IMG/VR virus record: IMGVR_UViG_3300044949_001070
Span: 1-37,881 of that record
Source: a virus
Direction: 5' to 3' (one strand)
DNA: 37,881 nt
Below are positions 14,194 through 36,625 of this stretch, piece after piece. The translations under genes and the position numbers were made by a program. The notes under the pieces were generated by a model. That model did no database searches, was not told where the DNA came from, and was given only the letters and a program-made list of their open reading frames with translations. Positions within the stretch are counted from its first letter, which is position 1. Each line of letters begins with the position of its first letter.

Positions 14194-14498
14194 TGTCAGA
14201 AAGGTCAGAAGTAAAACGTGATGGTGCAAAAGCTCAAAAAAATAGTGGTAGGGGTGACTATCAAAAGGGTGATGCACAGTGGAATCAGTTTCTCGTAGAT
14301 TATAAAGAGGCATCTAAATCTTTTACTTTAAATAAAGATGTATGGGCAAAAATATGTACGGACACCTTTAAAGTAAATAGAGACATGCACCCAGCATTAA
14401 AGATTATAATTGGGGAGCAGTCTAAAGTAAGGCTTGGCATAATAGAATGGTCAGTCCTAGAAGAATTGATAGAGTTTTGGGAAAAAAGTCATGAATAA
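14193..14498 (+). CDS. Putative PD-(D/E)XK nuclease, Holliday-junction resolvase-like
   Basis: 101 residues with a basic N-terminus, G-D27, then a strand carrying D36-Y-K38 (FLVDYKEASKSF), followed by a helix W51-AKICTD and a strand PALKIIIG. This order (acidic residue, D/E-x-K, aromatic helix, strand) matches small PD-(D/E)XK resolvases such as Hjc-like phage enzymes, in which it binds metal and cuts branched DNA. It lies between recA and the Cas4-like gene. It is a pattern-based call; a separate RuvC-type enzyme is encoded at 17787. Confidence 0.5.
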   Translation: MSERSEVKRDGAKAQKNSGRGDYQKGDAQWNQFLVDYKEASKSFTLNKDVWAKICTDTFKVNRDMHPALKIIIGEQSKVRLGIIEWSVLEELIEFWEKSHE

Positions 14499-15393
14499 AA
14501 AATTTACTAAGCATGAGATATTAAAAAATATTTTTGTATACAAAGGTTTATTTACCGATGTAAAAAATACTTTAAAAGTAATTAAAGATTCAGAAAACCA
14601 GGACAAAGAGATATACATAAAGGATTGGTGGGAGTGGTCCGATTTAGGATCAATGTCTAAGTCAGACCCAAATAATTTTTATAGCATTAACACAGATAAA
14701 TTAGATGAAAAAAGTTTAAAAGAACATATTGTTTTAAAAGAAATTTACGATATATATAAGTTTGTTGCAGAAGATTATTTAAAAAATAATTTTAATAATG
14801 TAGATTGGGAGTACGGTGTAAGCACACCAGACCTGTCTCACCCAATGTGGAGCCTTGGCGAAATAAGCATATTAAAACATCGTGGTAAGCCTCATAATGG
14901 AAATCAAATGAGCTACCATACGGACGAGCACCAATGGGATAAAGATGTTCCTGGTAAAAAATTTGCACTTACAGTTACAATGTATTTAGAGGATGAACAT
15001 GTTGGAGGAGAAGTTTCTTTTTTTAATGAAAAAGATAGCAATATCTCTTTAATAAATTTTCATCCAGCACCTGGAGATATAACAGTGTTTCCATCTTTCT
15101 ATCCATATTATCACGGAGTTCTTCCATTAAAGTCTGGAGAAAAATATTTAATAAGAATGTTTTTTTATTGGTACTTTCCTGGAAGCAAAGAGTGGATAGA
15201 AAATAGGATGTCTTACAGTAAAGAAGAGTGGGAGCAAATAGAATTAAAAAGAAAATCAGATGAGTTTAATTCTGGAAAATATAGTAGGCACATTTCAATT
15301 ATAGGCGAACCAGAAATTACAGATCAAACAAGCGTGCCAGTACACATTAAAAAGGAAAGTGTAACTTTTTTAAACGGAAAAGATTTGGTATAA
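14491..15393 (+). CDS. 2-oxoglutarate/Fe(II)-dependent oxygenase
   Basis: 300 residues. The prolyl-4-hydroxylase-type core has the iron triad H143-x-D145...H208 and K218 ten residues on as the likely 2-oxoglutarate ligand, within GGEVSFF...PGDITVFPS. Such enzymes hydroxylate proteins, sugars or small molecules using O2. The first 110 residues match no family I know. It resembles the next gene, including FPGSKEW/HPGSKEW and a C-terminal tail. It is visibly more AT-rich (AAA, TTT, ATA) than the replication genes, suggesting an acquired accessory gene. It overlaps the preceding gene by 8 bases. Confidence 0.85.
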   Translation: MNKKFTKHEILKNIFVYKGLFTDVKNTLKVIKDSENQDKEIYIKDWWEWSDLGSMSKSDPNNFYSINTDKLDEKSLKEHIVLKEIYDIYKFVAEDYLKNNFNNVDWEYGVSTPDLSHPMWSLGEISILKHRGKPHNGNQMSYHTDEHQWDKDVPGKKFALTVTMYLEDEHVGGEVSFFNEKDSNISLINFHPAPGDITVFPSFYPYYHGVLPLKSGEKYLIRMFFYWYFPGSKEWIENRMSYSKEEWEQIELKRKSDEFNSGKYSRHISIIGEPEITDQTSVPVHIKKESVTFLNGKDLV

Positions 15394-15439: not shown

Positions 15440-16393
15440 ATGAATAAGATATCCATTATGCCACAGGTTACAGTCTATAGAGATATACTTTCTGATGATC
15501 AGATTGAGTTACTGTTAAATGAAATACGCATATCTCAAAAAAATTATCAGGAGATGGAAAAAACAGACCCATCTTTATCAACTTATTATGACTTTCATGG
15601 ACCTCAGCCACAAAATAGAGATGACGGAACACTTATTATGACATGGACTCCATGGTACACATATGGTCTGAGAAGCGTTTGGTCAAATCCATATGATATA
15701 AAAAATAAAAAAGAGCATATTAGTGGTTATAATATAATTAAAAATGCAATTGCAGAAGCCCACTTCGACTACTTAAGCGACTATAAAGATAGCGGAAGAT
15801 GGACTTATGATATTAAAGAGTGGGACATTCTAGCGCCAGAAGATGAAGAGGGCAACAACATGCCCCTGTCTACATTTGAAATATTGCAGCACAGACTTAA
15901 TCTAGATCAAGACTACACAATTGGTGTTCACACAGATTGGCACAATCATAGGCTTGATGAGCCTGGCCCAAAACAAATATTAACTTATACAATATATTTA
16001 AATGATGATTACGAAGGCGGGGAGATAGATTTTGTAGACGAAGAAAATAATAAGTTGATAGTCTATAAGCCCAAAAAGGGAGACATAACTATATTCCCGT
16101 CTGGCCAACCTTATTGGCATGGAGCTAGAGCCGTCAAGTCAGAACCCAGTAAAATATTTATAAGAACTTTTGGTATATACAGACACCCTGGTAGCAAAGA
16201 ATGGAACACTGGACTTAAGCTGCACGGCATTAAAAATTGGATCGATAAAGAAAACGAAAGAGTAAAAGACTTTGCAGATAAAGGAAATGTCGGAAGGCAA
16301 ATAGTATTTGAGGGCGAATCTCCAAATATTGGAAATAATTTACTTCCACTCTATATTAAGTCGGAAGAATATATAGATGGAAGAGGTGTCTAA
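15440..16393 (+). CDS. 2-oxoglutarate/Fe(II)-dependent oxygenase, tandem paralogue
   Basis: 317 residues with iron ligands H164-x-D166 and H227, and candidate 2-oxoglutarate ligands K238/R242. The core strands (GGEIDFVDEENN, KKGDITIFPSG) align with those of the upstream gene, and both share the HPGSKEW/FPGSKEW turn and a related C-terminal segment, so they are duplicates that have diverged strongly. The substrate is unknown. It is AT-rich like its neighbour, with a GGGAG ribosome site and its own -10 promoter. Confidence 0.85.
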   Translation: MNKISIMPQVTVYRDILSDDQIELLLNEIRISQKNYQEMEKTDPSLSTYYDFHGPQPQNRDDGTLIMTWTPWYTYGLRSVWSNPYDIKNKKEHISGYNIIKNAIAEAHFDYLSDYKDSGRWTYDIKEWDILAPEDEEGNNMPLSTFEILQHRLNLDQDYTIGVHTDWHNHRLDEPGPKQILTYTIYLNDDYEGGEIDFVDEENNKLIVYKPKKGDITIFPSGQPYWHGARAVKSEPSKIFIRTFGIYRHPGSKEWNTGLKLHGIKNWIDKENERVKDFADKGNVGRQIVFEGESPNIGNNLLPLYIKSEEYIDGRGV

Positions 16394-18353: not shown

Positions 18354-18496
18354 AATTATATCAAAGTAAAGAATGGCTATACAGAAGATATGTTGTACAA
18401 AAGAAAACAGTGACAGAAATAGGAAAAGAGTGTCAAGTATCTGCTATGACCATACAAAGATACCTAGAGCAGTTTGGATTAATTAAAAAAAGATGA
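18350..18496 (+). CDS. 48-residue helix-turn-helix protein
   Basis: A small gene on ATGA overlaps at both ends (upstream resolvase, downstream glycosyltransferase). It reads SKEWLYRRYVVQKKTVTEIG, then a turn and a recognition-like helix (VSAMTIQRYLEQFG), ending in KKR. This is the form of a resolvase/HNH-associated HTH, with almost nothing outside it. DNA binding is likely; it may regulate the junction between recombination and sugar genes. Confidence 0.6.
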   Translation: MKLYQSKEWLYRRYVVQKKTVTEIGKECQVSAMTIQRYLEQFGLIKKR

Positions 18497-19251
18497 GCAT
18501 TCAAAAAATTATTTGGCAGACATATGAAACATCATATGAAGATTTACCAACTTATGCAAAAGATAGCATAAATACCTGGAAGCATAATAATCCAGATTGG
18601 CAACACGGATATATGAGTGGACCAGATAGAGAATCGTTTTTTAAAGAAAACTTTTCTGAAGAAGTATATAACACGTATATTAATTTGCCTTTAGGTGTCA
18701 TGAAGGCTGGCCTATGGAGATTTGCAATTCTTTATATCAATGGTGGAGTCTATGCAGACATGGATACACACTGCAAGTCACCAATTTCAGATTGGCTAAG
18801 TGAAGATAATGATGTGCTTTTAGATATAGAAAGAGACACTCCGTGGCTAGCCACACAAGTAATTGCTGCAAAGGCTGGGAGCCCGATAATGAAGGCAGCA
18901 ATTGATCTATGCGTTGAAAGATGTGCAAGCGGTATTATCAAACATAACCATATGGTTCATTATTATACAGATGTTCAAATGTTTACTGACGCTGTGTATA
19001 AAGAGCTTGGGGTTGAGCCTTATCAAAAACATTTAAATGATTGGGCACCAGAGCTTATGGAGATGGACTGGTTAAAAAATAATAATGTAAAGATATTAAA
19101 TGGCGAAGAAGCAAGGCGCTTACTCGATAGAGATGTAGTTCATTTGTATTGGGGCGATGATAGAGAAGCTGGATGGATTGCATGGAAAAAAGATCCAATG
19201 GTTAATGAGTCATACCCTAATGGATTTAATCCTCATGAGTGGGATAAGTGA
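18493..19251 (+). CDS. GT32-type glycosyltransferase
   Basis: 252 residues. It begins IQKIIWQTYE, typical of the DXD-sugar-binding (Gly_transf_sug / OCH1-like) family, and has the nucleotide-sugar and metal motif D89-M-D91 in GGVYADMDT. Members transfer a sugar from a nucleotide donor in a retaining reaction. There is no membrane segment, so it acts in the cytoplasm or on a soluble acceptor. The nucleotidyltransferase gene just downstream could supply the donor. Confidence 0.85.
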   Translation: MSIQKIIWQTYETSYEDLPTYAKDSINTWKHNNPDWQHGYMSGPDRESFFKENFSEEVYNTYINLPLGVMKAGLWRFAILYINGGVYADMDTHCKSPISDWLSEDNDVLLDIERDTPWLATQVIAAKAGSPIMKAAIDLCVERCASGIIKHNHMVHYYTDVQMFTDAVYKELGVEPYQKHLNDWAPELMEMDWLKNNNVKILNGEEARRLLDRDVVHLYWGDDREAGWIAWKKDPMVNESYPNGFNPHEWDK

Positions 19252-19910
19252 TGTCAACAATAGGAATTTTACCTGCATCAGGAAAAGCTTCACGTGTAGG
19301 CGGCATACCTAAGTTTTGCCTGCCCATCTCAGATGAAAGATCTCTTTTGCAATGGCACGTTGAGCAAATGCTAGAAGTTTGTGACGAGGTTAGAGTTTCA
19401 ACTAGAGCTGAATGGGTTCCAATTATCCAGAATATGGATATGAATATCAAGCTAATAGTTCGTGAGCCATCAACTATGTCAGATGCTGTAAAGTTTATGG
19501 TAGGAGATTATAACGATACCGTTTTAGTTGGAATGCCAGACACATATATTCATGGAGCACAAAATAATATCTATAAAGAAATGAATAGGGTTCCTGGAGA
19601 CCTTGTTTTAGGTGTATGGGAATGTAGTGAAGAGTTAAAGGGTAGAGTTGGGCAAGTATTGTTATCTGGAGATAAAGTTGTTTCTTCTATGGATAAAACA
19701 AATAATTGCGACTATCCAAACATGTGGGGAACTATGCTATTCCGCAAAAATTTGGTAAGATATATTGATCCAGATTTAGAGCATCCAGGAAAACAAATAC
19801 AGGAATGGATTGATATGAGTTTAGATATCAGGGCTGTGAGGCCAGGCGGAAAGTATATGGATATAGGAACACTAAAAGGTCTTAAGCAACTATACAAGGA
19901 GATGGAATAA
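19251..19910 (+). CDS. Sugar-1-phosphate nucleotidyltransferase-like protein
   Basis: 219 residues from ATG 19251 (TGATG overlap; GTG 19248 also possible). The N-terminus GILPASGKASRVGG-x-PK is the NTP-binding signature of RmlA/GlmU-type enzymes, with PK at 20-21. The VGMPDTY segment provides the metal aspartate, and GKYMDIGT the product-side loop. It has no acyltransferase repeats. It would activate a sugar phosphate to an NDP-sugar, a natural partner of the upstream GT32 gene. Confidence 0.8.
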   Translation: MSTIGILPASGKASRVGGIPKFCLPISDERSLLQWHVEQMLEVCDEVRVSTRAEWVPIIQNMDMNIKLIVREPSTMSDAVKFMVGDYNDTVLVGMPDTYIHGAQNNIYKEMNRVPGDLVLGVWECSEELKGRVGQVLLSGDKVVSSMDKTNNCDYPNMWGTMLFRKNLVRYIDPDLEHPGKQIQEWIDMSLDIRAVRPGGKYMDIGTLKGLKQLYKEME

Positions 19911-20254
19911 TGGCGGGAACAGATTATCCAAATAAGGATAGCTATCAATCATGGGTTACAGATTTGCAACTGATTGCAACAGATGCACCATCTGGACATA
20001 AAATTATAGTAGAGTGCCTTGAAATTGCAGAGATGCTGATTAAAAAAAATATATCATATGGAGACTCAGCATTATCTCCTATTCGCATATTCTCTCAAGC
20101 AGATAATCAAGAGCAGATTAAGATCAGAATTGATGATAAAATTAATAGGATCAAGAATGGCTCAGGTTTTGCAGGAGACAATGATATTGACGATATGATT
20201 GGTTATTTAATCTTACTTAAAATTGCTAAGAAACTTGCTATTTCAGTCAACTAG
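19910..20254 (+). CDS. All-alpha NTP-pyrophosphatase-like protein (DUF1599-like)
   Basis: 114 residues, helical. The segments KNISYGDSALSP and IRIDDKINRI...DNDIDDMIGYLILL resemble the DUF1599 / nucleotide-modification-associated family, related to MazG-type pyrophosphatases, with D/E residues on paired helices. The family occurs in phages and near base-modification genes. The role here, nucleotide-pool editing or base modification support, is inferred. It overlaps the nucleotidyltransferase stop by one base. Confidence 0.6.
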   Translation: MAGTDYPNKDSYQSWVTDLQLIATDAPSGHKIIVECLEIAEMLIKKNISYGDSALSPIRIFSQADNQEQIKIRIDDKINRIKNGSGFAGDNDIDDMIGYLILLKIAKKLAISVN

Positions 20255-20257
20255 AAG

Positions 20258-20263
20258 TATAAT
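20258..20263 (+). promoter_or_regulatory. -10 box TATAAT six bases before the terS start (leaderless)
   Basis: TATAAT is followed by six bases and then ATG 20270; no ribosome site fits in between. There is no -35 consensus. The packaging genes would start from a leaderless mRNA. Confidence 0.55.
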
Positions 20264-20269
20264 AAATCT

Positions 20270-20812
20270 ATGGCTGAAATAGAACTCGCACAACATTTTG
20301 ATAGAATGAACAAGGTGGTTGAAGAACTACTTAAGGGTAACAGTGCTACCCAAATTGCAAGTATTACAGGGTTTTCTCGTAAAGAAGTTGTTGAGTTTAT
20401 TGATGAGTGGAAGAGTGTTGTTCACAATGATAGCAGCCTTAGAGACCGTGCCAAAGAAGCAATCTTGGGCGCAGACCAGCACTATGCAATGCTCATCAAA
20501 GAGGCCTGGAAGACCGTAGAGGACGCAGATCAGGCTGGCCAACTAAATGTAAAGGCTGGAGCATTAAAGCTCATAGCAGACATTGAGGGCAAGAGAATAG
20601 GCATGCTGCAAGAGGTCGGGGTGCTTGAAAATAATGAAATTGCTTCTCAGATTGCAGAGACAGAGCGAAAGCAGGAAGTCCTTGTAAAGATATTAAAAGA
20701 GGTAACTTCATCATGCCCTAAGTGTAAGATGGAGGTTGCAAAACGTCTTTCTCAAATAACTGGTATAGTTGAGTCAGTTGTAATTGAATCAGATGAGGTA
20801 GTAAATGTTTAA
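20270..20812 (+). CDS. Putative terminase small subunit
   Basis: 180 residues. An N-terminal HTH at about 19-46 (GNSATQIASITGFSRKEVVEFI) is followed by a long helical region and a CPKC pair near the C-terminus. Small terminases bind the packaging site through such an HTH. The call rests on this and on the large terminase 0.56 kb downstream, separated only by an inserted oxygenase gene. It has its own -10 box. Confidence 0.7.
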   Translation: MAEIELAQHFDRMNKVVEELLKGNSATQIASITGFSRKEVVEFIDEWKSVVHNDSSLRDRAKEAILGADQHYAMLIKEAWKTVEDADQAGQLNVKAGALKLIADIEGKRIGMLQEVGVLENNEIASQIAETERKQEVLVKILKEVTSSCPKCKMEVAKRLSQITGIVESVVIESDEVVNV

Positions 20813-21377
20813 TAATTTTAAAAAAATTGGTGAAGACATTTATGTTTATGAAAATTTTTTAAGCTTAGATCAGTGCAATGATATTGTAAATTTTTTAGAA
20901 CTACTGGAAGAAGATAAATGGGTATCTGACAGTCCGTATTTTGAAAATGTAATGAAAAGAACAGACCCAATAAGCAATGTTAATGAGGTAAGGATAAAGA
21001 TTGAATCTTTAATCCCAGAAGGATGGTTTTTAGGACCAAGCACCTGCGCCGTAAGAATGCAGGAAGGAAGTTCATGGGGCGAGCATGCAGACGTTCACGA
21101 CTTTGCAGAAATAGAAGAAAAAGCATCTTTATACGTAGAAGGAATGCCATATGAAGAAAAAGATTTATCTATATATGGAACTGTGGTTTACTTTAATAAA
21201 TTTGAAGGAGGAGAAATATATTATCCAACTCAAGGGATAGAATATTCTCCAAATCCTGGCGATTTAGTAATTCATAGCTCATCTCCAGAATGCCTTCATG
21301 GAGTTAAAAAAGTTATTTCTGAAAAAAGATATTCTTATAGTAATCATATTTATAAAAAAATAAAGGTACCAGTTTAA
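20805..21377 (+). CDS. 2-oxoglutarate/Fe(II)-dependent oxygenase inserted between terminase genes
   Basis: 190 residues, a minimal prolyl-4-hydroxylase-type core: H94-x-D96, H165 and R175 ten residues on as the 2-oxoglutarate anchor, with GTVVYFNKFEGGEIYYP as the double-stranded helix core. It overlaps the small terminase by 8 bases and the large terminase by one (TAATG), with a GAGGT ribosome site. It is not closely similar to the tandem pair at 14.5-16.4 kb. It could modify a virion or host protein, a sugar or a nucleotide; no substrate is evident. Confidence 0.83.
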   Translation: MFNNFKKIGEDIYVYENFLSLDQCNDIVNFLELLEEDKWVSDSPYFENVMKRTDPISNVNEVRIKIESLIPEGWFLGPSTCAVRMQEGSSWGEHADVHDFAEIEEKASLYVEGMPYEEKDLSIYGTVVYFNKFEGGEIYYPTQGIEYSPNPGDLVIHSSSPECLHGVKKVISEKRYSYSNHIYKKIKVPV

Positions 21378-23167
21378 TGGATTTTAACTTTAATGATTTA
21401 ATTGATATTTTAGACGGCGAAGAGTTTGAAGAAAAGCCAGTAGACTTACGAACATTTGTACAAAGCCCAGATTATTTAGGGCTGCCTCCTCTTTCAGAAT
21501 ACCAGTACACATTAATTGAAAAAAGTTCTCAAATATATAAAGAATCAACTTTGATTAAGCTGTTTGGCGAAGAAGAAGGCAAAAGAATGTTTAAGCAAAC
21601 AGCCAATGAGGTTGTGGCTCAACTAGGTAAGGGTTCTGGAAAAGATTACTGCTCTACAATTGCGGTATCCTATATAGTTTATTTACTATTGTGCTTAAAA
21701 GACCCAGCAACATATTACGGAAAGCCTCCTGGTGACTCGATTGATATCATTAACATTGCTATTAACTCTCAACAGGCAAACAATGTTTTCTTTAAAGGAT
21801 TCAAAACACGAATAGATAAATCGCCATGGTTTGTTGGTAGGTATGAGGCAAAAGCATCTGAGATTAAGTTTGATAAGGCGATTACTGTTCATTCAGGTCA
21901 CTCTGAAAGAGAAGCTTGGGAAGGCTACAATGTTATTGTAATTATTCTCGACGAAATTTCTGGCTTTGCAATTGAAAATACAACTGGTCACGAGCAGGCA
22001 AAAACTGGTTCTGCAATTTATGACATGTATAGAGCATCCGTAGATTCACGTTTCCCAGACTTTGGCAAAGTTATTTTACTTTCTTTTCCAAGATACAAGA
22101 ATGATTATATACAACAAAGATACGATGACGTAGTCGCTGAAAAAGAAACTGTTGTGAGGACCCATCATTTCAAGCTAGACGATGATCTTCCAGACGGAAC
22201 AGAGGGCAATGAGTTTGATGTTGAATGGGAAGAAGATCACATTATTTCTTACAAGTATCCCAAGATGTACGCACTTAAAAGACCTACTTGGGAAGTAAAC
22301 CCAGTTAGATCTATAGAAGATTTTAAGGTAGCATTTTATAAGAATCCATCGGATGCCCTAGGAAGATTTGCATGCATGCCAGCCGAAGCCATAGATGCAT
22401 TCTTTAAATCAAGAGAAAAGATTGAATCTGCATTTAGAAATACGGCTGTAGCAATAGACAACTTCGGTAGATTTGAAAACTGGTTTGCACCTGATCCAGA
22501 TAAAGAATATTTTATACATGTTGACTTAGCTCAAAAACATGACCATTGTGCCGTTTCTTTAGCTCATGTTCAAAAATGGGTCAACATAAAGATAACTAAT
22601 GAGTATTCTCAGCCAGCACCAATTGTTGAAGTTGATGCAGTAAGGTACTGGACTCCAACAGCAGATAAGTCTGTAGACTTTACAGAAGTTAAAGACTATA
22701 TACTGGCATTAAGAACCATGGGGTTTAAGATTCGTGTTTGCACATTTGATAGATGGAACTCTCATGATATGATGCAGCAGCTAAAGCAATACGGAATCAA
22801 TACTGAAATATTATCAGTTGCTAAAAAACATTACGATGATATGGCTATGATCGTATTAGAAGAAAGACTTATAGGGCCAAGAATACCTTTATTGATTGAT
22901 GAATTGCTTCAGCTAAAAATAATGCGTGACAAGGTCGACCACCCAAGAAAGGGTTCTAAGGACTTAGCTGACGCAGTTTGCGGTTCAATATATAATGCAA
23001 TAAGCAGAACTAGATTTGAAAGAAATGAAGAAATAGATATACACACATATAGCTCTATGATAAATGATAGAGAAAGTAAAGAGATTGAATATGTTCAGAA
23101 CATGGTTAGGGCACCAAGAATGCCACAAGAATTAAAAGATTCAATGGACAGGATGTTAATAATATGA
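21377..23167 (+). CDS. terL: Terminase large subunit
   Basis: 596 residues, the ATP-driven packaging motor and headful nuclease. Walker A is L83-GKGSGKD (to 90), Walker B VIVIILDE (186-193). The C-terminal RNase H-like nuclease has D383 (YFIHVDLAQKHDH), D458 (VCTFDRWNS) and D529/D532 (SKDLADAV). It is full length for the family. It pumps DNA into proheads whose genes lie outside this window. Confidence 0.93.
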   Translation: MDFNFNDLIDILDGEEFEEKPVDLRTFVQSPDYLGLPPLSEYQYTLIEKSSQIYKESTLIKLFGEEEGKRMFKQTANEVVAQLGKGSGKDYCSTIAVSYIVYLLLCLKDPATYYGKPPGDSIDIINIAINSQQANNVFFKGFKTRIDKSPWFVGRYEAKASEIKFDKAITVHSGHSEREAWEGYNVIVIILDEISGFAIENTTGHEQAKTGSAIYDMYRASVDSRFPDFGKVILLSFPRYKNDYIQQRYDDVVAEKETVVRTHHFKLDDDLPDGTEGNEFDVEWEEDHIISYKYPKMYALKRPTWEVNPVRSIEDFKVAFYKNPSDALGRFACMPAEAIDAFFKSREKIESAFRNTAVAIDNFGRFENWFAPDPDKEYFIHVDLAQKHDHCAVSLAHVQKWVNIKITNEYSQPAPIVEVDAVRYWTPTADKSVDFTEVKDYILALRTMGFKIRVCTFDRWNSHDMMQQLKQYGINTEILSVAKKHYDDMAMIVLEERLIGPRIPLLIDELLQLKIMRDKVDHPRKGSKDLADAVCGSIYNAISRTRFERNEEIDIHTYSSMINDRESKEIEYVQNMVRAPRMPQELKDSMDRMLII

Positions 23168-23397
23168 GTACGTATCAAGAAAAGGCTAAAGAGTGCAAAT
23201 GCTGCGGCAAACATGTTCCGCTACCTACAATACTAAAAGAGTACAGAGATGTAGTTGTATGTCCTACCACATTTGCAAATATTATAGAGTATAAAAGAAT
23301 ATGGACAGATTTAGGATCAAGGCCTCCTGGAAATGTTAGAAAACATTTTTCAGAGTATGTTCAGCAAATTGTTGAAAAAACTTTTATTGAAATGTAA
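23164..23397 (+). CDS. Small cysteine-rich protein
   Basis: 77 residues on an ATGA overlap with terL. C11, C13, C14 and C33 could bind zinc; the C-terminal half is helical and basic. It is unrecognised, and probably co-translated with the terminase. Confidence 0.55.
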   Translation: MSTYQEKAKECKCCGKHVPLPTILKEYRDVVVCPTTFANIIEYKRIWTDLGSRPPGNVRKHFSEYVQQIVEKTFIEM

Positions 23398-23402
23398 AGA
23401 TA

Positions 23403-24374
23403 ATGATATCTTTTAGTGAGATTAATTACAAGACTTTTAATGATGCTCCAGATGGAGCGCCAAGATGTACTAATTTTAAAGATATAAATTTAACAAACAA
23501 TATAGAAAGCAATAAAAAAATAATATCAGATAAAGTTTTTATCGCTTTTTTAGATGATAGGCCTCACCATTTAATCACCGACACCCTGCTTCAATATGAG
23601 TATTTAAAAAAATTTATTCCAGAAATAAAAATATTATTTTTTAAAAATTATTATTACAAGCATTCTAAATTTAGCGAATTCATATTTAATGAGTATTCTG
23701 GATTCGAAGAGCTATTTGACTTAGATAAAGACGACTTGCTTATAAAAGATGCTTATTTTATTTTTCAAGAAGGCAGCTACAAATCTATATTTAGTTATGA
23801 AATTTTAGATTTTTATTCTGTTAATTCTGAAGAGATGTCTATTATCCATAGGGTAAGAGCTAATGGAAATCCTTATGGAGAGCTTAATTTAAGAGTAGTT
23901 CAGAAAAATGGATTACCTGGGCTAACCAATAAATTTAAGGATGACTTTGATATAGAGAGCAGTAAAAAAATATATGTATCCAGATCACTTGCAAATAAAA
24001 GACATAAAGATGGAAATGCAGAGCCTGAAAGCAAGTACAGGTACTACGATAAAGAACATTTAATAGAAAAATATTTTATGGAAAAGGGCTATACTTCAGT
24101 GTGTCTTGAAAACCTATCCCCACAAGATCAGATACATCTTATGAAAAGCTCATCCCATGTTGCGGGATGCCAAGGTACTGGAATGCTAATGACAATTTTT
24201 TGTAAAAGTGGCACAAAGATTATTGAGCTTGATGTTAGTCAGCTAGGAACAACGTATCTTTATTATAATCAAGATTTAAACCATGATGTATACAGGATTA
24301 ACTTAAAGGGCATAGCGTCTGATAAAGATATTTTAAGTTCATTAAATATGCACTATGAATCTTTTAAGATATAG
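23403..24374 (+). CDS. GT61-type glycosyltransferase
   Basis: 323 residues. The C-terminal half carries the family 61 (DUF563) pattern: KKIYVSRSLANKR, a linker, LIEKYFMEKGYTSVCLENLS, then QDQIHLMKSSSHVAGCQGTG, where most members have H-G-A/G. The N-terminal half is poorly conserved. No membrane helix is seen. It is very AT-rich, with AGA arginines and TTA leucines, and starts six bases after the upstream gene with only AAAG as ribosome site. It probably transfers a sugar onto a glycan. Confidence 0.7.
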   Translation: MISFSEINYKTFNDAPDGAPRCTNFKDINLTNNIESNKKIISDKVFIAFLDDRPHHLITDTLLQYEYLKKFIPEIKILFFKNYYYKHSKFSEFIFNEYSGFEELFDLDKDDLLIKDAYFIFQEGSYKSIFSYEILDFYSVNSEEMSIIHRVRANGNPYGELNLRVVQKNGLPGLTNKFKDDFDIESSKKIYVSRSLANKRHKDGNAEPESKYRYYDKEHLIEKYFMEKGYTSVCLENLSPQDQIHLMKSSSHVAGCQGTGMLMTIFCKSGTKIIELDVSQLGTTYLYYNQDLNHDVYRINLKGIASDKDILSSLNMHYESFKI

Positions 24375-24409
24375 TACGTACGGCGTTTGCCACATATCAA
24401 TAGCTTTGA

Positions 24410-24418
24410 TGGTATAAT
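24410..24418 (+). promoter_or_regulatory. Extended -10 promoter TGG-TATAAT
   Basis: TGGTATAAT lies 31 bases before ATG 24450. A short dyad ATCAA-N5-TTGAT sits just upstream of the box. A strong GGAGG ribosome site follows. Confidence 0.55.
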
Positions 24419-24449
24419 TATGTATACTTATATAGCTGTAGGAGGAAAT

Positions 24450-24596
24450 ATGTTTAAGATAGAAAAAGATTTTAATGGTCAGCCAGGCTGGTCAGTTTTA
24501 GATAAGAGCAATAACGTAATTGGTGTCTATAATGACAAAGCTCATGCAGACATGGAAGTTCGTAAGCAAATAAAAATTATTCTTAATAGAGGATAG
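24450..24596 (+). CDS. 48-residue hypothetical protein
   Basis: Starts at ATG 24450 behind TAGGAGGAAAT, clearly better than an in-frame codon at 24387 that lies upstream of the promoter. It has a beta-beta-alpha layout: FKIEKDFNGQPGWSVLDK, NNVIGVYNDKAHADMEVRKQI. It resembles small KTSC/DUF-like single-domain proteins common in phages, but no family can be assigned. The strong ribosome site suggests abundant product. Confidence 0.65.
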   Translation: MFKIEKDFNGQPGWSVLDKSNNVIGVYNDKAHADMEVRKQIKIILNRG

Positions 24597-24610
24597 TTTT
24601 TAATATTTTT

Positions 24611-24631
24611 GTTGGGGTATTCAATCCCAAC
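24611..24631 (+). other. Stem-loop ahead of the carbamoyltransferase gene
   Basis: GTTGGG (24611-24616) and CCCAAC (24626-24631) form a perfect 6-bp stem with a 9-base loop, extendable by one wobble. No T run follows, so it is not a standard terminator. It lies 24 bases before the start codon and might affect translation. Confidence 0.4.
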
Positions 24632-24654
24632 GCCTTTAGTATTGGAAAAATGCA

Positions 24655-26103
24655 ATGATCATTTTAGGTATCAATGAGACCTCTCATGATGCATCCGTAT
24701 CCTTAATAAAAGACGGAGAGATACTATTTGCTGGGCATGCTGAAAGATATAGCAAGAATAAGAATGACTGGTATGTAAATCAAGAACTAGTCGATGATGC
24801 TTTACAATATGGGTTTCCAGATAAAATTGCATACTACGAGAAGCCGTTGTTAAAAGCATCTAGATTATTTTTAAAAGGCGGAGCTGGTGAATGGAAACCA
24901 AAATTTAATATAGATGGAGTTCCAAGAAAATCCTTTAGCCATCACTACTCACATGCTTGTGCTGGCTATTACACAAGCAAATTTAAAGATGCGGTAATTG
25001 TAGTTATTGATGCAATCGGAGAGTACAATACATCTACAATTTGGTCTGGCGAAGGCGATAAGGTAAAATTAAAATATAAGCAAAATTATCCAGTCAGCTT
25101 TGGACTTTTTTATTCTGCATTTACGCAGCTTATTGGACTAATGCCAAATCAAGAAGAGTATATAATGATGGGGATGGCTGGATACGGAGACCCTAATAAA
25201 TATTTAAAAAGAATTGTCGAATACTTCCCGTCATATTATGAGCAAAAATACAACTTTCACAAAGGAATAACCGACTGGAACGATGTAATATCAGATCAAG
25301 ATAGATTTGACATTGCCGCATCTGTACAAGTTGTTTATCAAAGCAGGCTAATGGAATTTATGCATATGGCAAAAAGCATTACTGGCAAAGATAATTTAGT
25401 TTTTATGGGTGGATGTGCTTTAAATTGTTCTGCAAATACCGCACTGTGGAAAATTTTTAATGATATTTGGATAATGCCAAATCCTGGTGATGCTGGAAGC
25501 TCATTGGGTGCAGCCGCTGCTTTGTATGGCAAACATATTAATTGGAAGACTCCGTATTTAGGAACAGACCTTGGTCAAAATTGGCCTATAGATAAAGTTT
25601 TTCAAGAGCTAAAAGAAAATAAAATTGCAGCAGTTGCAGCTGGAAGAGCAGAGTATGGCCCAAGAGCTTTTGGCAATAGAAGCATCTTAGCAGACCCAAG
25701 AGATCCTGATATAAAAAATGAAGTAAATAAGATTAAGCAGAGAGAACTATTTAGGCCGTTTGCACCAATTGTTCTTGAGCATTTTGCTCACGAGTGGTTT
25801 GAGATGCCAACAAGATCAACTCCTTATATGCAGTATTCAGTTAAATGTAAGCAGCCAGATAAGATTCCTTCGGTAGTGCATGTAGATGGAACCTCTAGGG
25901 TTCAGACTGTTAACGAGCACGATCACCCACAGTTACATTTTTTGCTTAGGCAGTGGTATTGGCATACTGGCGTACCAGTTCTATTAAACACTAGTTTAAA
26001 CATAAAGGGTCAGCCGTTGCTGAATGACTCTCAAGATATTTTAAACTGGCAAGCCAAATATAATCATACTATAATTACATCAATCAAGAAAGAAGAAAAG
26101 TAG
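24655..26103 (+). CDS. NodU/CmcH-family O-carbamoyltransferase
   Basis: 482 residues. The N-terminal ASKHA domain starts MIILGINETSHDASVSLI with metal/nucleotide-site residues H11 and H96...H100 (SHHYSHACAGYY). The C-terminal domain holds EYGPRAFGNRSILADPRD, the carbamoyl-phosphate-binding signature. Such enzymes make carbamoyl-AMP and transfer carbamoyl to sugar hydroxyls of Nod factors, antibiotics or capsules. It is shorter than typical members (about 550-620). Its neighbours, GT61 and SGNH genes, support action on a glycan, though a nucleotide substrate is not excluded. Confidence 0.9.
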   Translation: MIILGINETSHDASVSLIKDGEILFAGHAERYSKNKNDWYVNQELVDDALQYGFPDKIAYYEKPLLKASRLFLKGGAGEWKPKFNIDGVPRKSFSHHYSHACAGYYTSKFKDAVIVVIDAIGEYNTSTIWSGEGDKVKLKYKQNYPVSFGLFYSAFTQLIGLMPNQEEYIMMGMAGYGDPNKYLKRIVEYFPSYYEQKYNFHKGITDWNDVISDQDRFDIAASVQVVYQSRLMEFMHMAKSITGKDNLVFMGGCALNCSANTALWKIFNDIWIMPNPGDAGSSLGAAAALYGKHINWKTPYLGTDLGQNWPIDKVFQELKENKIAAVAAGRAEYGPRAFGNRSILADPRDPDIKNEVNKIKQRELFRPFAPIVLEHFAHEWFEMPTRSTPYMQYSVKCKQPDKIPSVVHVDGTSRVQTVNEHDHPQLHFLLRQWYWHTGVPVLLNTSLNIKGQPLLNDSQDILNWQAKYNHTIITSIKKEEK

Positions 26104-26192
26104 TGTTAATTAGATATTACGCATACAATGTTTACTTTAAATTAAAAAAAATATTTAAAAAAGATAAAAAACAAGAAAGGTATTTATACTGA
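26103..26192 (+). CDS. 29-residue basic micro-protein
   Basis: A GTG start overlaps the upstream TAG (TAGTG), and the TGA overlaps the downstream ATG (TGATG), so the reading frame exactly bridges two genes. The peptide is aromatic then very lysine-rich (FKLKKIFKKDKK). The perfect stitching argues for translation, perhaps mainly to couple the carbamoyltransferase and SGNH genes. It is too short for a function call. Confidence 0.45.
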   Translation: MLIRYYAYNVYFKLKKIFKKDKKQERYLY

Positions 26193-27187
26193 TGGACTTA
26201 GATGAATACCTTAAATGGGAGACTCCTAATTCAAACTATCATTTTAACACCGCTGCCATAGATTCATTTTTTTTAAATGGGATGAAGAATCCTAAAAATA
26301 TTGATCCTGACTATAAAAAACATTACAAATTAAATTCCGAAGGGTTTAGATCAGAAGAGTTCAAGAATAACCCAGAGATATTATTTTCTGGCTGCTCCTT
26401 TACATATGGATCTGGAATACCGATTGATTATTTGTGGAATAAAATTGTATCTGAAAACTTTAAAGTTTCTCATCAAAATTTAGGAGTTCCAGGGGCATCT
26501 GTTATGTTCACAGTATCTAATTTATTTGAGCATTTTAGGATATATGGAAACCCCAAAGTAGTAGCATGTCTATTCCCAAGTTTTTACAGAACCTTTAGAA
26601 TTAAAAACTATAAATTTGGTTATAGCGAATACGATTATGCTAGACATGAGCTTCTTAAAGCTGGCGACGATTATGTTCTAGATGAAGATAGATACTATGA
26701 AAATGTTCAAAATCTGTATACAGAGATGGACGGACCAAAAATAATTAAAATGCCAACAGATATAAGAAATATAATACAGCCAGACACATCCTACTACTTA
26801 TCAATGATGTCAATCAATATTTTAGAGCAGTATTGTAAATCAAATGGTATTAATTTTGTTTGGTCGACATATGATGCTTTTAATATGCATTCTCTTAATA
26901 TAATAAAACAAAGAAATCCAGATAGACTTGAGGGTTTAATAGACTTACAGCAAGATATGTGGCACAGAAACTTTGATGAGCTTATTGAAAGTTATTATGA
27001 GCTTTCAAATGACGGTACAAGGACTGAAATAAAGTGCCACCAAGATTTATTAGAAAAAGACCCTTATATATTTCACATGGGATTTGATAGGAAAAGTGGT
27101 CCCTGGGACATGCATTGGGGTTCTCACAGGCACAAGCACATATCAGATGCGTTCACTAAAGCTATAGCCAGTTTAAATATTTTTTGA
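26192..27187 (+). CDS. SGNH/GDSL-like hydrolase
   Basis: 331 residues. Block I is ILFSGCSFTYGSG, with S69 in the nucleophile position; NLGVPGASV follows as block II-like. Near the C-terminus WDMHWGSHRHK fits the D-x-x-H block. SGNH proteins remove or transfer acyl groups on sugars or peptidoglycan. There is no signal peptide. With the adjacent carbamoyltransferase and GT61 gene it fits decoration of a saccharide. It is highly AT-rich like its neighbours. Confidence 0.65.
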   Translation: MDLDEYLKWETPNSNYHFNTAAIDSFFLNGMKNPKNIDPDYKKHYKLNSEGFRSEEFKNNPEILFSGCSFTYGSGIPIDYLWNKIVSENFKVSHQNLGVPGASVMFTVSNLFEHFRIYGNPKVVACLFPSFYRTFRIKNYKFGYSEYDYARHELLKAGDDYVLDEDRYYENVQNLYTEMDGPKIIKMPTDIRNIIQPDTSYYLSMMSINILEQYCKSNGINFVWSTYDAFNMHSLNIIKQRNPDRLEGLIDLQQDMWHRNFDELIESYYELSNDGTRTEIKCHQDLLEKDPYIFHMGFDRKSGPWDMHWGSHRHKHISDAFTKAIASLNIF

Positions 27188-27193
27188 TATACT
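27185..27193 (+). promoter_or_regulatory. Extended -10 promoter before tRNA-Arg
   Basis: TGA-TATACT, with TATACT at 27188-27193, places a start point near 27200, two bases before the mature tRNA 5' end. There is no -35 consensus. Confidence 0.45.
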
Positions 27194-27201
27194 AGCAAAA
27201 T

Positions 27202-27274
27202 GCCTTTGTAGCTCAGTGGACAGAGCATTCGGTTTCTACCCGACTGGTCGCAGGTTCGAATCCTGCTAAGGGCA
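27202..27274 (+). tRNA. tRNA-Arg(UCU)
   Basis: A 73-nt cloverleaf: acceptor GCCTTTG/TAAGGGC, D stem GCTC/GAGC, anticodon stem TTCGG/CCGAC with a T-C mismatch at the top, loop TTTCTAC (anticodon TCT, reads AGA), variable loop TGGTC, T arm GCAGG-TTCGAAT-CCTGC, discriminator A. CCA is not encoded. AGA is conspicuously used in the nearby accessory genes. Confidence 0.93.
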
Positions 27275-27295
27275 CAAATATGGAAAGGTTGTATT

Positions 27296-27964
27296 ATGAA
27301 AAGAATATTGGTAACGGGCGCTAGCTTTGGAATAGGTAAATCGATCTGTGAGTCTTTAGCTAAAGAAGGGCACACGGTCATAGCTGTTGCAAGAAGTCAG
27401 GAAGAGCTAAAAAAACTTTCTATGTCTTACAGCAATATATTGACCTACTCATTGGATATAACTAACTTAGAATCATTAGACATATTGGTAAAAGAGGTAG
27501 GCCAAATCGACGTTGTTGTGCATAATGCAGGAGGCGGCGGTACTAATAAATCAGTATTAAATGATCAAATTGAAAGCTGGGACTACTCATATAAAATTAA
27601 TGTCTTGGCTCCAGTATATATAACTAAAGCATTTCTTCCAGAAATGATTAAAAATAAAAATGGTCATTTTATTTTTATAACATCCACATGCGGACATTTT
27701 GTATATAAAAATGGATCTGGATACACTGTATCAAAGCATGCAGAGGTCGCACTGTCTGAGTTGCTGAGAATGGAACTGGTTGGAACTGGAGTAAGGGTTA
27801 CAGAAATAGCCCCTGGCAATGTAAATAGCAGAGGCAACGGAGATCCAGCCAGCAGTCTCACACCAGAAGATGTTGCGGAGGCGGTAAGATGGTCAGCGTC
27901 AATGCCAAGTCACGTAAATATTGACTCCATAAAGCTTTTGCATGTCAATAATTCAATTAGATAG
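27296..27964 (+). CDS. Short-chain dehydrogenase/reductase
   Basis: 222 residues, classical SDR. The cofactor motif TGASFGIG is at 7-14, N77-A-G-79 on the central strand, and the catalytic N102, S130, Y143-x3-K147 tetrad is complete. AVARSQ after the second strand (R33) suggests NADP(H) preference. The substrate is unknown; next to glycosylation genes a sugar or lipid-type carbonyl is plausible. It starts behind GGAAAGG, 21 bases after the tRNA. Confidence 0.9.
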   Translation: MKRILVTGASFGIGKSICESLAKEGHTVIAVARSQEELKKLSMSYSNILTYSLDITNLESLDILVKEVGQIDVVVHNAGGGGTNKSVLNDQIESWDYSYKINVLAPVYITKAFLPEMIKNKNGHFIFITSTCGHFVYKNGSGYTVSKHAEVALSELLRMELVGTGVRVTEIAPGNVNSRGNGDPASSLTPEDVAEAVRWSASMPSHVNIDSIKLLHVNNSIR

Positions 27965-27986: not shown

Positions 27987-28061
27987 TGTAGTATAAATTA
28001 GATGGCATAAGAGTTACTTTATTTGAGTGCTAATAAATTAATAAGAATTAGGAGAATTAAA

Positions 28062-28676
28062 ATGGCAGCAGTACAAGGATCAGCAGCAAGATTAGTAGAG
28101 GTAGCATTAGCGGAAATTGGATACATTGAAGGTCCAAAAGATAACGAGACAAAGTACGGTAAGTTTACAAAGTCTAACTTCCAACCATGGTGCGGAAGTT
28201 ATGTAATGTGGTGTGCAAATGAAGCTGGCGTAAAGATGCCAAACACAGTCTACACTCCAGCAGGTGCACAAGCATTTATTAAAGCAGGCACATGGCAGCC
28301 AGTGGAGACAGCAACACCAGCAGTTGGGGATATAGCCTATTTTGATTTTCCAAACGATGGTGTCGATAGAATTTCTCATGTAGGAATTGTTACTGCAGTT
28401 AATGCAGATGGAACAGTCGATGTTGCAGAAGGAAACACCAGCCCAGATAAAAAGGGAGATCAGAGAAATGGTGGACAAGCATGTCTTAAGAATCGTGCAT
28501 ACAAGAAGAAGAACGGTTCAAAGCTTCGCAAGAGCCAGCCAGTCTTTATTGTTGGATTTGGACGTCCAGCATTTGGTCAAGCAGTTAAACCAAAGACAGA
28601 TAAGCCAGTTGCTAAAAAGGCAGCACCAGCAAAGCCAGCAAAGGGTGGCGGCGGAAAGCCAGCAGCAACAAAGTAA
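28062..28676 (+). CDS. CHAP-domain endolysin with basic C-terminal tail
   Basis: 204 residues from ATG 28062 (TTAGGAG upstream). An N-terminal CHAP/NlpC-type amidase or peptidase domain has C44 (PWCGSYVMWC), H106 (RISHVGIV) and E123-x-N125 (AEGN). From about 175 a Lys/Ala/Pro/Gly-rich tail resembles histone H1 tails and may hold the enzyme to anionic cell-wall polymers. It would cut peptidoglycan peptide bonds at lysis or infection. There is no signal peptide, so release needs a holin; candidates lie at 32.0-32.5 kb. Confidence 0.88.
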   Translation: MAAVQGSAARLVEVALAEIGYIEGPKDNETKYGKFTKSNFQPWCGSYVMWCANEAGVKMPNTVYTPAGAQAFIKAGTWQPVETATPAVGDIAYFDFPNDGVDRISHVGIVTAVNADGTVDVAEGNTSPDKKGDQRNGGQACLKNRAYKKKNGSKLRKSQPVFIVGFGRPAFGQAVKPKTDKPVAKKAAPAKPAKGGGGKPAATK

Positions 28677-29148: not shown

Positions 29149-29171
29149 ACTTGCTTAAAAGGAGAAATAAA

Positions 29172-29591
29172 ATGGTAACACAATTTGCTATGGATCTTTT
29201 TAGAGATCCATTTTTTATAGGCTTTAATCGTGATTTGGAAAGAATAAATAGCGTGCATCAAACAGCAGCTAGACAAACATATCCTCCATATGATGTTTTA
29301 AAGTTAGATGAAGATACTTTTCAAGTATCAATTGCAGTAGCTGGATTTACAAAAGACGATATAAACGTATCTGTAAACAATGGCACTCTAATTGTAACTG
29401 GAGAGATTCAGGAAGTGACTGACGGAGAGTACTTGCATAAGGGAATCGCGTCTAGAAAGTTCACACGTACATTTGCACTTGGCGAATATATGGAAGTTAC
29501 TGGGGCAAAGATTGAAGATGGTATGTTGCATATCAATGTAGATCGAATAGTTCCAGAAGAAAAAAAGCCTAAAACAATTAAGGTTAAATAA
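29172..29591 (+). CDS. Hsp20-family small heat shock protein
   Basis: 139 residues from ATG 29172 (AAAAGGAG upstream). The alpha-crystallin domain runs from YPPYDVLKLDEDTFQVSIAVAGF to HINVDRIVP, IbpA-like, with a C-terminal TIKV resembling the IxI/V oligomer anchor. It holds unfolding proteins without ATP. T4-like cyanophages also carry hsp20, perhaps to assist virion protein folding. It has its own regulated-looking promoter. Confidence 0.92.
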   Translation: MVTQFAMDLFRDPFFIGFNRDLERINSVHQTAARQTYPPYDVLKLDEDTFQVSIAVAGFTKDDINVSVNNGTLIVTGEIQEVTDGEYLHKGIASRKFTRTFALGEYMEVTGAKIEDGMLHINVDRIVPEEKKPKTIKVK

Positions 29592-29893: not shown

Positions 29894-32002
29894 TTGAAAA
29901 AGGGTAAATTATTTAGAATAACAGCTGCAATCTCTCTTGCATTCAGCTGGCTTTTTATTGCCCCTGCAAATGGAGACGATCCATTAACAATAGGTGCTCA
30001 GAGGATAGAAGCCCTAAATGACAAGGTTTCAAACCTTAATGATAGCGCTGAACTAGTATCACTTATTGATGTAGCACAGGATAAGTATGAGGCTGCAGTA
30101 AGATCCAGGGATAACAAAACCTCAGCAGAAGAATCGTATGACGAGGCAGTGGAAACAGAAGCCAATGCTCTTTCCACCCTTGATGAAAAAATATTAAATG
30201 TATCTACAGCCCAATCAGCAGTAGATGGGCAGACAGCCACAGTAGAAATAGCACTTAATGAAAAGAACTCTGCTCAAGAAGCACTAAATATATCAAACAT
30301 TAATCTTCAAACCGCACAGTCCAATATGCAATCTGCTGGAGGACAAGGTTTGTCATATACTGTTTATCATTTGGCAAGAGTATTCCCTAGTATAGCAGTG
30401 CCAAGCGGTGTAATTTGTTCTGGTACTTGGAACTCAAACTATATGAGCCTTCCAGTTTGTGATAATAGATATGAAAACTTTATAGTTAAGTTTACTGGAC
30501 AAATCACAGTTCCGTCATGGTTTACAACAGTAGCGTTTGCAGGGTATACAGACGATGGCTTTAGAATGTTTATTGATGGAAATCTTGCAGTTAACAACTG
30601 GGTAGAGCAGGGAGTAAGATGGAGTGCTTGGTCCCCAACGTATGATGTAAGCGAAGATAAGACTTTAGATGTAGAGATATGGTGGTATAACGGTGGAGGC
30701 CCAGGTTCCTATCATCTTGGTTGGACAATTCCTGGTGGAATGACTGGTGCAGGTTGTGACTATGCTGGAGACCCAAGAGTCTGGGGACAAAATTTTAGTT
30801 GTAATCTTGGAACATTTTCTTCTGGTCCAGGGGCAACTCAGGAGCAGATAAATGATTATAACGAGGCACTTGAAGCAAGGAATGCAGCGCAACAAGAATA
30901 CAACAGCAGATCACTTGCATATACACAAGGTTCTGCAACATTAAATAGCTTACAGAATGATTTAGAATTAGCACAAGATGAAAAAGATCAAGCAGAGACG
31001 GCATATGAGATTGCACAATTAAACACTGCCTTGACATTAGCAGCAAAAGATAGTGCTATTGAAGAATACAATAATGCAATTGAAAATATGAATGATGCCA
31101 TTACTGCTGCTGAAGAAGAGTACGCTGCTCAATGGGATTTTGAAGAAAAGCAAAGAATTAATGCTGCTATTGCCACTGCCCTTGCAAATATGCCACAGCC
31201 AGAACCAACACCAGAGGTTACAGTTGAACCTACCCCAGAGCCTTCTCCAGAACCATCAACTGAGCCAACAGAGGAACCTACTGAAGAACCTACACCAGAG
31301 CCTTCTCCAGAGCCTACAAATGAGCCTACAGAAGACCCTAAGCCAGAGCCAACTGAAGAGCCTACACCTGAACCAGAACCAACAGATGAGCCAGTCGTAG
31401 AGCCTACAGAAGAGCCAACTCCAGAACCAGAACCAACTCCTGAACCAGAACCAACAACTAATCCTGAAATAGAAGATGAAGAGTTGGCTGAACTTATTCC
31501 TGAAAATGGTACAGGAACAGCAGAAGATCTATCTGGAGTTATTGCTAATCTTACAAGCAAGGATAACAAATTAGTTAAACTTTCACCAGAGCAGGTAGCA
31601 GCAGTTAGTCAGACACTTAAGTCGTTAACACAAGAAGCAAAGGCAGAAATTGCTGAAGACCTTGGTATTGCTCCTACAGAAGTAGCAAAGATTGCTGAGC
31701 AGATGAAAGAAAACCCAGCGCTTGCCTCAGCATTTGTTGAGTTCGCAGAAAGAGCAGGGGATGCAGGAGAAACCCCAATGCCATTTACATTAGCAGATGC
31801 AGTAACAGAAGTACAAACAGAAGCATTCTTAGCAGACCCACTTGGAGCAATATTTGCAGTGGACCCATTAGAACTCCTATCCAATTTCTCTGAATTGGGT
31901 ATGGACATGACAGATGATCAGAGAGAAAAAGCCCAGGAAGTCATTATCCCAGTAATCATTGTTTCACAGATTGCAAACGTAATGATTGGGATGAGGAGAT
32001 AA
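29894..32002 (+). CDS. Secreted PA14-domain protein with Pro-Glu-Thr repeat stalk
   Basis: 702 residues with a TTG start behind GTAGGGG. A signal peptide of about 27 residues (cleavage near PANG) is followed by a coiled coil to about 145, then a PA14/GLEYA-type beta domain at 150-280 ([25 protein letters not shown]), a second coiled coil to 430, and an E-P-T/S-rich stalk at about 434-525. A helical domain and a hydrophobic C-terminal helix ([18 protein letters not shown]) follow. PA14 domains bind carbohydrate. It may be a cell-surface or virion adhesin; export by the host Sec system is inferred from the signal. Confidence 0.8.
31196..31465 (+). repeat. Degenerate Pro-Glu-Thr coding repeat
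   Basis: About 90 codons of irregular EPT-x-EP / PEPS / PEPT units within the PA14 gene, encoding an extended acidic linker. The degeneracy is mostly in third positions. Confidence 0.75.
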
Positions 32003-32796: not shown

Positions 32797-33027
32797 ATGC
32801 TTACTCTCACACCTTTAGGCGTAGACATATTTATAAATAGAGCCAAATCAAAAACACAAGATCCGTTTTGGGATAACTACAATTTAGTCATATGGAATAA
32901 AAATTCATCTGGTTACTCTGATAAAAAAGGAATGTTTAGAAAAGAGTGGGGACTGGCAGAAATAATTCCTGTCAACGAAGATGGTTTATGGAAGCTGCCA
33001 AAGCGCTATGTCAAATATTTTAAGTGA
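32797..33027 (+). CDS. Hypothetical protein upstream of whiB
   Basis: 76 residues behind ATAGGAAAAA, first gene after the strong promoter at 32694. Aromatic-rich and basic (FWDNYNLVIWNKN, LWKLPKRYVKYF), without cysteine motifs or membrane segments. It overlaps the WhiB gene by 20 bases. It is unrecognised. Confidence 0.55.
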   Translation: MLTLTPLGVDIFINRAKSKTQDPFWDNYNLVIWNKNSSGYSDKKGMFRKEWGLAEIIPVNEDGLWKLPKRYVKYFK

Positions 33028-33319
33028 TTTAGGAGTAGATCAAGAAGATTTTGAATGGTGGCACCTAGGTTTATGCAGAGGAATGGACACAAATCTTTTT
33101 TACGATAAATATGAGTCAGATGTTAATGTAGCAAAAAATATAGATGAAGCTTGCCTGTCTTGCCCAGTCATAGCAATGTGTTATCAGTCTGGTGTTGAAA
33201 ATGAAGAGTACGGTGTGTGGGGTGGAGTTTATTTAAATGCGGGATCAATAAATAAATCACGTAATACTCACAAAGACCAAGAAACATGGAAGAGATTGAA
33301 AAAGAAAAATGTTTATTGA
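33008..33319 (+). CDS. WhiB-family transcriptional regulator
   Basis: 103 residues from ATG 33008 (alternative ATG 32981). Four cysteines, C23, C49-x2-C52-x5-C58, bind the [4Fe-4S] cluster, followed by the G69-V-W-G-G turn and a basic tail (RNTHKDQETWKRLKKK). WhiB proteins occur only in Actinobacteria and their phages; they bind sigma factor region 4 and alter host promoters. Phage versions such as TM4 WhiBTM4 inhibit host WhiB2. This is the main host clue in the window. Confidence 0.92.
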   Translation: MSNILSDLGVDQEDFEWWHLGLCRGMDTNLFYDKYESDVNVAKNIDEACLSCPVIAMCYQSGVENEEYGVWGGVYLNAGSINKSRNTHKDQETWKRLKKKNVY

Positions 33320-36426: not shown

Positions 36427-36625
36427 AAATACCGTACTAGAAGGAATAATTAAGGATATTGGTGAAGAGTTATATCAAAAATGGTATAATGGACTGGCAA
36501 TCGAAGATCGCACAGAAGAATCATCTAAAGCAATGGCCAAAAATGCTGGAGAGACAACATTTTGGGTTATTCAAACATTCATGAATAAATTCAATGAAGC
36601 AGCGGACCAACTAAAGGATACTTAA
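36419..36625 (+). CDS. Hypothetical helical protein, GTG start
   Basis: 68 residues starting at a GTG that overlaps the protease stop by 8 bases, behind AAGGCGG. All-helical and acidic (VLEGIIKDIGEELYQKWYNG, FWVIQTFMNKFNEAADQL). It overlaps the thioredoxin start by one base. It is unrecognised. Confidence 0.55.
   Translation: MDKNTVLEGIIKDIGEELYQKWYNGLAIEDRTEESSKAMAKNAGETTFWVIQTFMNKFNEAADQLKDT

Follow-up and report, generated by a model that had tools for sequence, protein, structure and literature searches.

The window analyzed here is the whole viral record IMGVR_UViG_3300044949_001070 (IMG/VR; 37,881 bases), and its major genes are all encoded on the + strand. Genes for sugar-modifying and oxidizing enzymes are interspersed with its terminase genes, and an earlier sequence-only reading had joined them into one modification program wrapped around the terminase. 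Most of the enzyme families named in that reading are present by profile, homologue, and fold matches at the family level: glycosyltransferases (GTs) of families GT32 and GT61, a sugar-type nucleotidyltransferase (NTase), a carbamoyltransferase, an SGNH hydrolase, a short-chain dehydrogenase (SDR), and three oxygenases resembling prolyl 4-hydroxylases (P4H), two of them at 14.5–16.4 kb. The small (TerS) and large (TerL) terminase subunit genes likewise lie where it had placed them (Table 1). Our best explanation, which we regard as probable though by no means secure, is that these genes are exchangeable glycan-modification cassettes in fixed slots of an actinophage backbone, a mosaic rather than a single pathway, with a virion protein as the likeliest acceptor.

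TABLE 1 Insertion slots, cassette genes, and flanking backbone features of the window
Feature	Position	Strand	Content or evidence
Slot A	14.5–16.4 kb	+	Oxygenases 1 and 2
2-Oxoglutarate (2OG)-Fe(II) oxygenase 1, P4H-like (slot A)	14491..15393	+	PF13640, 40.5 bits, over cut-off
2OG-Fe(II) oxygenase 2, P4H-like (slot A)	15440..16393	+	PF13640, 50.4 bits, over cut-off
Slot B	Between RuvC and 114-aa gene	+	GT32-NTase
GT32 glycosyltransferase (slot B)	18493..19251	+	PF04488, 58.5 bits (cut-off, 23)
NTase, MobA/sugar NTase type (slot B)	19248..19910	+	Start overlaps GT32 stop by 4 bp
114-amino-acid (aa) core gene (outside cassette)	19910..20254	+	Present in 71 relatives, even where slot B is empty
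TerS (backbone)	20270..20812	+	72–95% in relatives; 40% to Francob gp86
Slot C	Between TerS and TerL	+	Oxygenase 3
2OG-Fe(II) oxygenase 3 (slot C)	20805..21377	+	PF13640, 25.2 bits, just under cut-off of 27
TerL (backbone)	21377..23167	+	PHROG terminase matches
77-aa core gene (next to TerL, bounding slot D on the left)	23164..23397	+	Cluster found in 95 scanned relatives
Slot D	Between TerL and CHAP	+	GT61, carbamoyltransferase, SGNH, tRNA-Arg, SDR
GT61 glycosyltransferase (slot D)	23403..24374	+	PF04577, 44.4 bits (cut-off, 27)
O-Carbamoyltransferase, NodU/TobZ type (slot D)	24655..26103	+	PF02543, 133 bits, and PF16861, 179 bits; both over cut-off
SGNH hydrolase (slot D)	26192..27187	+	No Pfam match; AlphaFold model, pLDDT 85
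tRNA-Arg(tct) (within slot D)	27202..27275	+	ARAGORN; kept together with SGNH end in L083
SDR (slot D)	27296..27964	+	PF00106, 144.8 bits
CHAP-domain endolysin (backbone, right edge of slot D)	28023..28676	+	PF05257, 53.9 bits; PHROG endolysin

Relatives share a gene order of RecA, small genes, Cas4, RuvC, the 114-aa gene, TerS, TerL, the 77-aa gene, and then CHAP/SNase/Hsp20, and four slots (A to D) lie within this backbone. Nucleotide alignments with the closest relatives end and resume at slot borders (14499/16414, 20787/21378, and 23381/24654), and the nearest relative does not carry the exact gene combination of the window. Oxygenase 3, whose frame overlaps both TerS and TerL, is missing from the nearest relatives at exactly 20787–21378, as is GT61 from its own slot. 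Homologues of oxygenase 2, only 26–34% identical, occupy the same slot in a few relatives, and SDR homologues (36–62%) are found in a minority. Slot D is mostly nearly empty, at only ~1.2 kb, across 45 TerL-sampled loci in which it is complete, and the carbamoyltransferase is encoded in just three of these. An independent contig (L082) matches window positions 22576–26933 at 100%, and the order TerL-GT61-carbamoyltransferase-SGNH is therefore no assembly artifact or chimera. A terminator-like hairpin (TGTTGGGG...CCCAACG) at 24610–24632, between GT61 and the carbamoyltransferase, suggests that the two are transcribed separately.

Co-occurrence of the modules was scored in 27 TerL-sampled, dereplicated loci with readable slots B and D. 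The NTase and carbamoyltransferase were found together in 2 loci, the NTase alone in 7, the carbamoyltransferase alone in 3, and neither in 15 (Fisher P = 1.0), numbers that are small, affected by contig ends, and uncorrected for relatedness. The slot C oxygenase was associated with neither gene (P = 1.0), and adding loci sampled via the module genes themselves, a mixed sample biased by how it was drawn, still gave no positive association. Because alignment breaks at the insertion slots and the modules lack positive association across relatives, the interval does not behave as one pathway, and the idea of a single coordinated program, with oxygenases, GT-NTase, and carbamoyltransferase-SGNH in different slots, is not upheld. 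Separate carriage without co-occurrence, which the sequence-only reading had named as evidence against itself, is what we find between modules but not within the GT-NTase or carbamoyltransferase-SGNH pairs. A vague modification program is thereby resolved into these two linked pairs, both of which occur commonly in phages whose hosts live in fresh water and are probably actinobacteria.

In slot B, the DxD motif of GT32 (D89/D91) is present in 24/24 homologues, and the NTase frame, which is joined to GT32 at its start, also overlaps the 114-aa core gene. A glycosyltransferase gene lies directly upstream of the NTase in all 57 distinct loci with enough upstream DNA, the frames overlapping by 4–16 bp; this partner is GT32 in 30 loci and GT2-type in 27. 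Since the NTase is paired with two unrelated GT families, it would appear to work for the GT, the simplest role being synthesis of the sugar donor. The NTase motifs LPASGKA(S)R...PK and DIGT are conserved, and 8 of 14 close homologues match NTP_transf_3 (best E, 5e-7).

The carbamoyltransferase of slot D matches decarbamoylnovobiocin carbamoyltransferase, GdmN, and TobZ in the PDB (best E, 3e-52) and is predicted to transfer carbamoyl to a sugar hydroxyl. Its SGNH neighbor was assigned by fold, with Foldseek matching the model to GDSL hydrolases in the PDB (best, 4rsh; E, 1.4e-4; TMq, ~0.35); the structural alignment is partial, which would be expected of a longer protein that has insertions. 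In an alignment of 36 relatives, S69 (36/36), D299 (35/36), and H308 (36/36) are kept, conservation that points to these residues as the catalytic triad. An SGNH gene lies within 4 kb of the carbamoyltransferase in 71 of 80 loci and within 300 bp in 65 (median gap, 56 bp); of the 43 loci that have SGNH and enough flanking sequence, 18 carry an SGNH gene on each side of the carbamoyltransferase. The other nine carbamoyltransferase loci have no SGNH at that distance; the three of these that were looked at have a different backbone arrangement in common, and a 2OG oxygenase adjoins the carbamoyltransferase in several of the nine. L131 and L117 each encode, side by side in slot D, a canonical sugar NTP_transferase together with GT61, the carbamoyltransferase, and SGNH. 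In another carbamoyltransferase-bearing phage, L121:14746–16263 encodes a protein that, going by its start alone, is putatively flavin dependent and resembles tryptophan halogenases.

The two partners differ sharply in conservation. Across 55 loci, median pairwise identity is 81% for the carbamoyltransferase (lowest, 69%), a value that partly reflects sample selection, and 29% for the best-matching SGNH pairs from the same loci; restricting the comparison to carbamoyltransferases that are at least 90% identical raises the SGNH median only to 35%. Given this disparity and the two-sided SGNH arrangement, we put forward tentatively, as an idea that could easily prove wrong, an unrecognized two-part phage system in which a constant enzyme writes the carbamoyl ester and SGNH proteins set or edit the target, diversifying in an arms race whose object is a glycan of the host or of the phage. 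If true, it would be a phage glycan arms race of a new type. Two single-protein searches of 50,697 phage records returned no relatives of the SGNH protein, and no cellular relatives of the window carbamoyltransferase group were found in genome contigs with the patterns used. The pairing may extend to marine phages, as suggested by a marine single-cell virus contig (L243) in which a weak SGNH profile match lies next to a carbamoyltransferase of 43% identity. Within the reach of the tools and searches used, both the carbamoyltransferase with hypervariable SGNH partners and the constant overlap of the NTase with one of two GT families are new.

Frequent absence, four slots, and replacement by unrelated genes (e.g., peroxiredoxin-like proteins) might also be expected of loosely retained passengers that serve no shared function for the phage, whether as stuffer or as mobile morons; "stuffer DNA" was raised by Sullivan et al. 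for cyanophage lipopolysaccharide (LPS) genes (PMC3037559). The retention of the GT32 DxD, SGNH triad, and NTase motifs, together with the stability of both pairings, makes this the least probable of the explanations we considered.

The sequence-only reading had also weighed two targets, a glycan and a DNA base, and preferred the former. Under the DNA alternative, an oxidized or hydroxymethylated base would be glycosylated and then carbamoylated, a scheme that suits the combination of oxygenase, GT, and carbamoyltransferase, and DNA is a known substrate of phage GTs (Pyle et al. 2024, as relayed in PMC12619734). None of the three window oxygenases matches Tet_JBP (PF12851) at E ≤ 1. Scoring with profile hidden Markov models thus agrees with the proposed P4H-like rather than TET/JBP-like character for oxygenases 1 and 2, and oxygenase 3 falls short of the PF13640 cut-off. 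Among 18 related contigs (54–118 kb), none carries Tet_JBP over the cut-off (sub-threshold cross-hits only), the thymidylate-synthase/hydroxymethylase family (PF00303), C5-methylase (PF00145), or QueC for 7-deazaguanine DNA modification (PF06508), the last three of which match in control genomes; the absence of a deoxynucleotide hydroxymethyltransferase noted from the sequence extends to these contigs. This absence is strong evidence and not absolute, because the related contigs may be incomplete. Furthermore, the modules are exchangeable and missing from most relatives, and the genes that replace them in the slots are mostly glycan genes: GT25, a GlcNAc GT, GT2, FkbM methyltransferase, epimerase/GDP-mannose dehydratase-like, mannose-P isomerase, and cytidylyltransferase. 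With GTs of cultured relatives also found in the same slot, glycan modification is strongly favored over DNA hypermodification, which we consider highly improbable.

Other phages bearing the window-type NTase encode a sulfotransferase. Sulfotransferase and APS-kinase-like genes are located at L222:11838–12422 and L113:20514–21275 in other NTase- or carbamoyltransferase-bearing phages, the sulfotransferase profile match having been obtained on the same gene of L217, and hint at sulfated glycans in those phages. Oxygenase 1 holds the residues HTD...H...R, and the PHROG label "DNA endonuclease" for the oxygenases is likely a mislabel, since Pfam gives 2OG oxygenase. Collagen-like Gly-X-Y repeats, considered as P4H substrates, were not found in the window proteins. 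The oxygenases may act as separate, exchangeable hydroxylases.

For the glycan cassettes, we infer the following reactions and order of steps. The NTase would activate a sugar phosphate to a nucleoside diphosphate (NDP)-sugar and hand it to the GT of the overlapping upstream frame. GT32 would transfer this NDP-sugar, and GT61 may extend the glycan; the carbamoyltransferase would then place a carbamoyl ester on a sugar hydroxyl, SGNH would trim or move ester groups, and SDR may adjust a keto or hydroxyl group of the sugar. A virion protein made late in infection is the likeliest acceptor, because the enzymes look cytosolic and several frames overlap terminase-region genes; host cell-surface precursors rank second. 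Long hydrophobic segments are absent from the cassette enzymes, whose Kyte-Doolittle mean over 19 residues never exceeds 1.32.

A serious rival, to which we assign a real but clearly smaller likelihood, is that the enzymes modify host cell-wall or surface glycan during infection (superinfection block or receptor masking) instead of virions. The same gene families would serve, and the slots resemble the glycan and LPS clusters of cyanophages and pelagiphages. Hypervariable SGNH partners would be expected if they tracked diverse host glycans, and a role in preventing superinfection or protecting DNA has been proposed for a GT in Nanopelagicales phages (PMC10202952). The cassette, however, lacks a flippase, polymerase, or membrane-bound GT, and the overlaps with packaging-region genes suggest late expression, both of which argue against a host target.

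Modification of a virion protein by exchangeable cassettes thus remains our preferred explanation, and several observations weigh against it. The acceptor is a candidate, and enzyme activities are predicted from genes. Late timing is deduced from gene overlap, and promoter-like sites are no commoner than in shuffled sequence (41 sigma-70 sites found versus 45.9 expected). The window NTase has no Pfam match of its own, and its AlphaFold model (14 close homologues) reaches a pLDDT of 36. The "near-complete set" of genes for building and decorating a sugar proved an overstatement, with neither a sugar-activating kinase nor a flippase or polymerase found; the window, at 37,881 bases, is a fragment, and further genes of the pathway may be located beyond it. 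A PA14-like protein (29894–32002), kept in relatives, starts with what resembles a signal peptide, is rich in Pro/Thr/Glu over a long stretch near residues 432–526, and is a possible O-glycan acceptor or exported protein.

Full-length TerL shows 62–64% identity to Streptomyces phages classified in Stanwilliamsviridae and 82–97% identity to many metagenomic viral contigs. The host is probably an actinobacterium, which is supported because the window encodes a WhiB-family factor at 32981–33319 (PF02467, 44.6 bits); the low GC content and the nature of its relatives point to a freshwater origin. At the TerS position, Patelgo gp87 carries the annotation terminase small subunit. Profiles lend no support to an NTP-pyrophosphatase within the interval. 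The 114-aa core gene, which the sequence-only reading had probably taken for that protein, has no Pfam or PDB match even when searched as a family of 20. DUF1599/Nmad1 was considered for it and not found, DUF1599 being absent from eight related contigs. An invariant motif, NISYGxSAL...RIDDK...GDNDxDD, characterizes this gene. A weak MazG match lies outside the interval, at 12326–12658, and also belongs to a core gene. The 77-aa gene, found in nearly all relatives, has CKCC and CP motifs, and thioredoxin (36625–36927, 98.4 bits) and Hsp20 (29151–29591, 70.1 bits) genes lie in the same region.

Accessory glycan genes in phage islands are already known (PMC3037559; PMC3909814). The likeness of the window to proposed TET/JBP-GT-carbamoyltransferase hypermodification clusters is a superficial list of enzyme classes; the window oxygenases belong to PF13640 rather than TET/JBP, and base-hydroxylating or hydroxymethylating genes were not found in the 18 related contigs. 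Pelagibacter phage HTVC008M has a NodU-like carbamoyltransferase homologue among UDP-glucose dehydrogenase, GT, and 2OG oxygenase genes, and cyanophage S-CAM1 has one among heptose genes, between tail fiber genes. Both phages differ from the window in backbone (Kyanoviridae), their carbamoyltransferases are just ~30% identical, and an SGNH partner was not found by profile at either locus. Actinophage virion glycosylation, with glycans reported on capsid and tail tube subunits (Freeman et al. 2023, as summarized in PMC12619734 and PMC13313380), likewise pairs an actinobacterial phage with a phage-encoded GT, the window being known from its genes alone; carbamoyl/SGNH decoration of the window type is not described in those summaries.

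The closest parallel in position is offered by the Stanwilliamsviridae (Loccivirinae) Streptomyces phages Francob, Blueeyedbeauty, and Patelgo, which share the RecA-Cas4-RuvC-...-TerS-TerL order and carry two glycosyltransferases and a nucleotidyltransferase between RuvC and the terminase, as in slot B. Their slot genes give no blastp match below E = 1 to GT32 or the NTase of the window, the NTase they encode is a 150-aa protein whose start is TagD-like, and the window has the carbamoyltransferase, SGNH, and oxygenases in addition. Judged by predicted functions, slot B in the two lineages is a case of positional and functional convergence on one kind of job. Since genes of similar function occupy this slot in relatives already in culture, the question of virion glycans is open to laboratory test.

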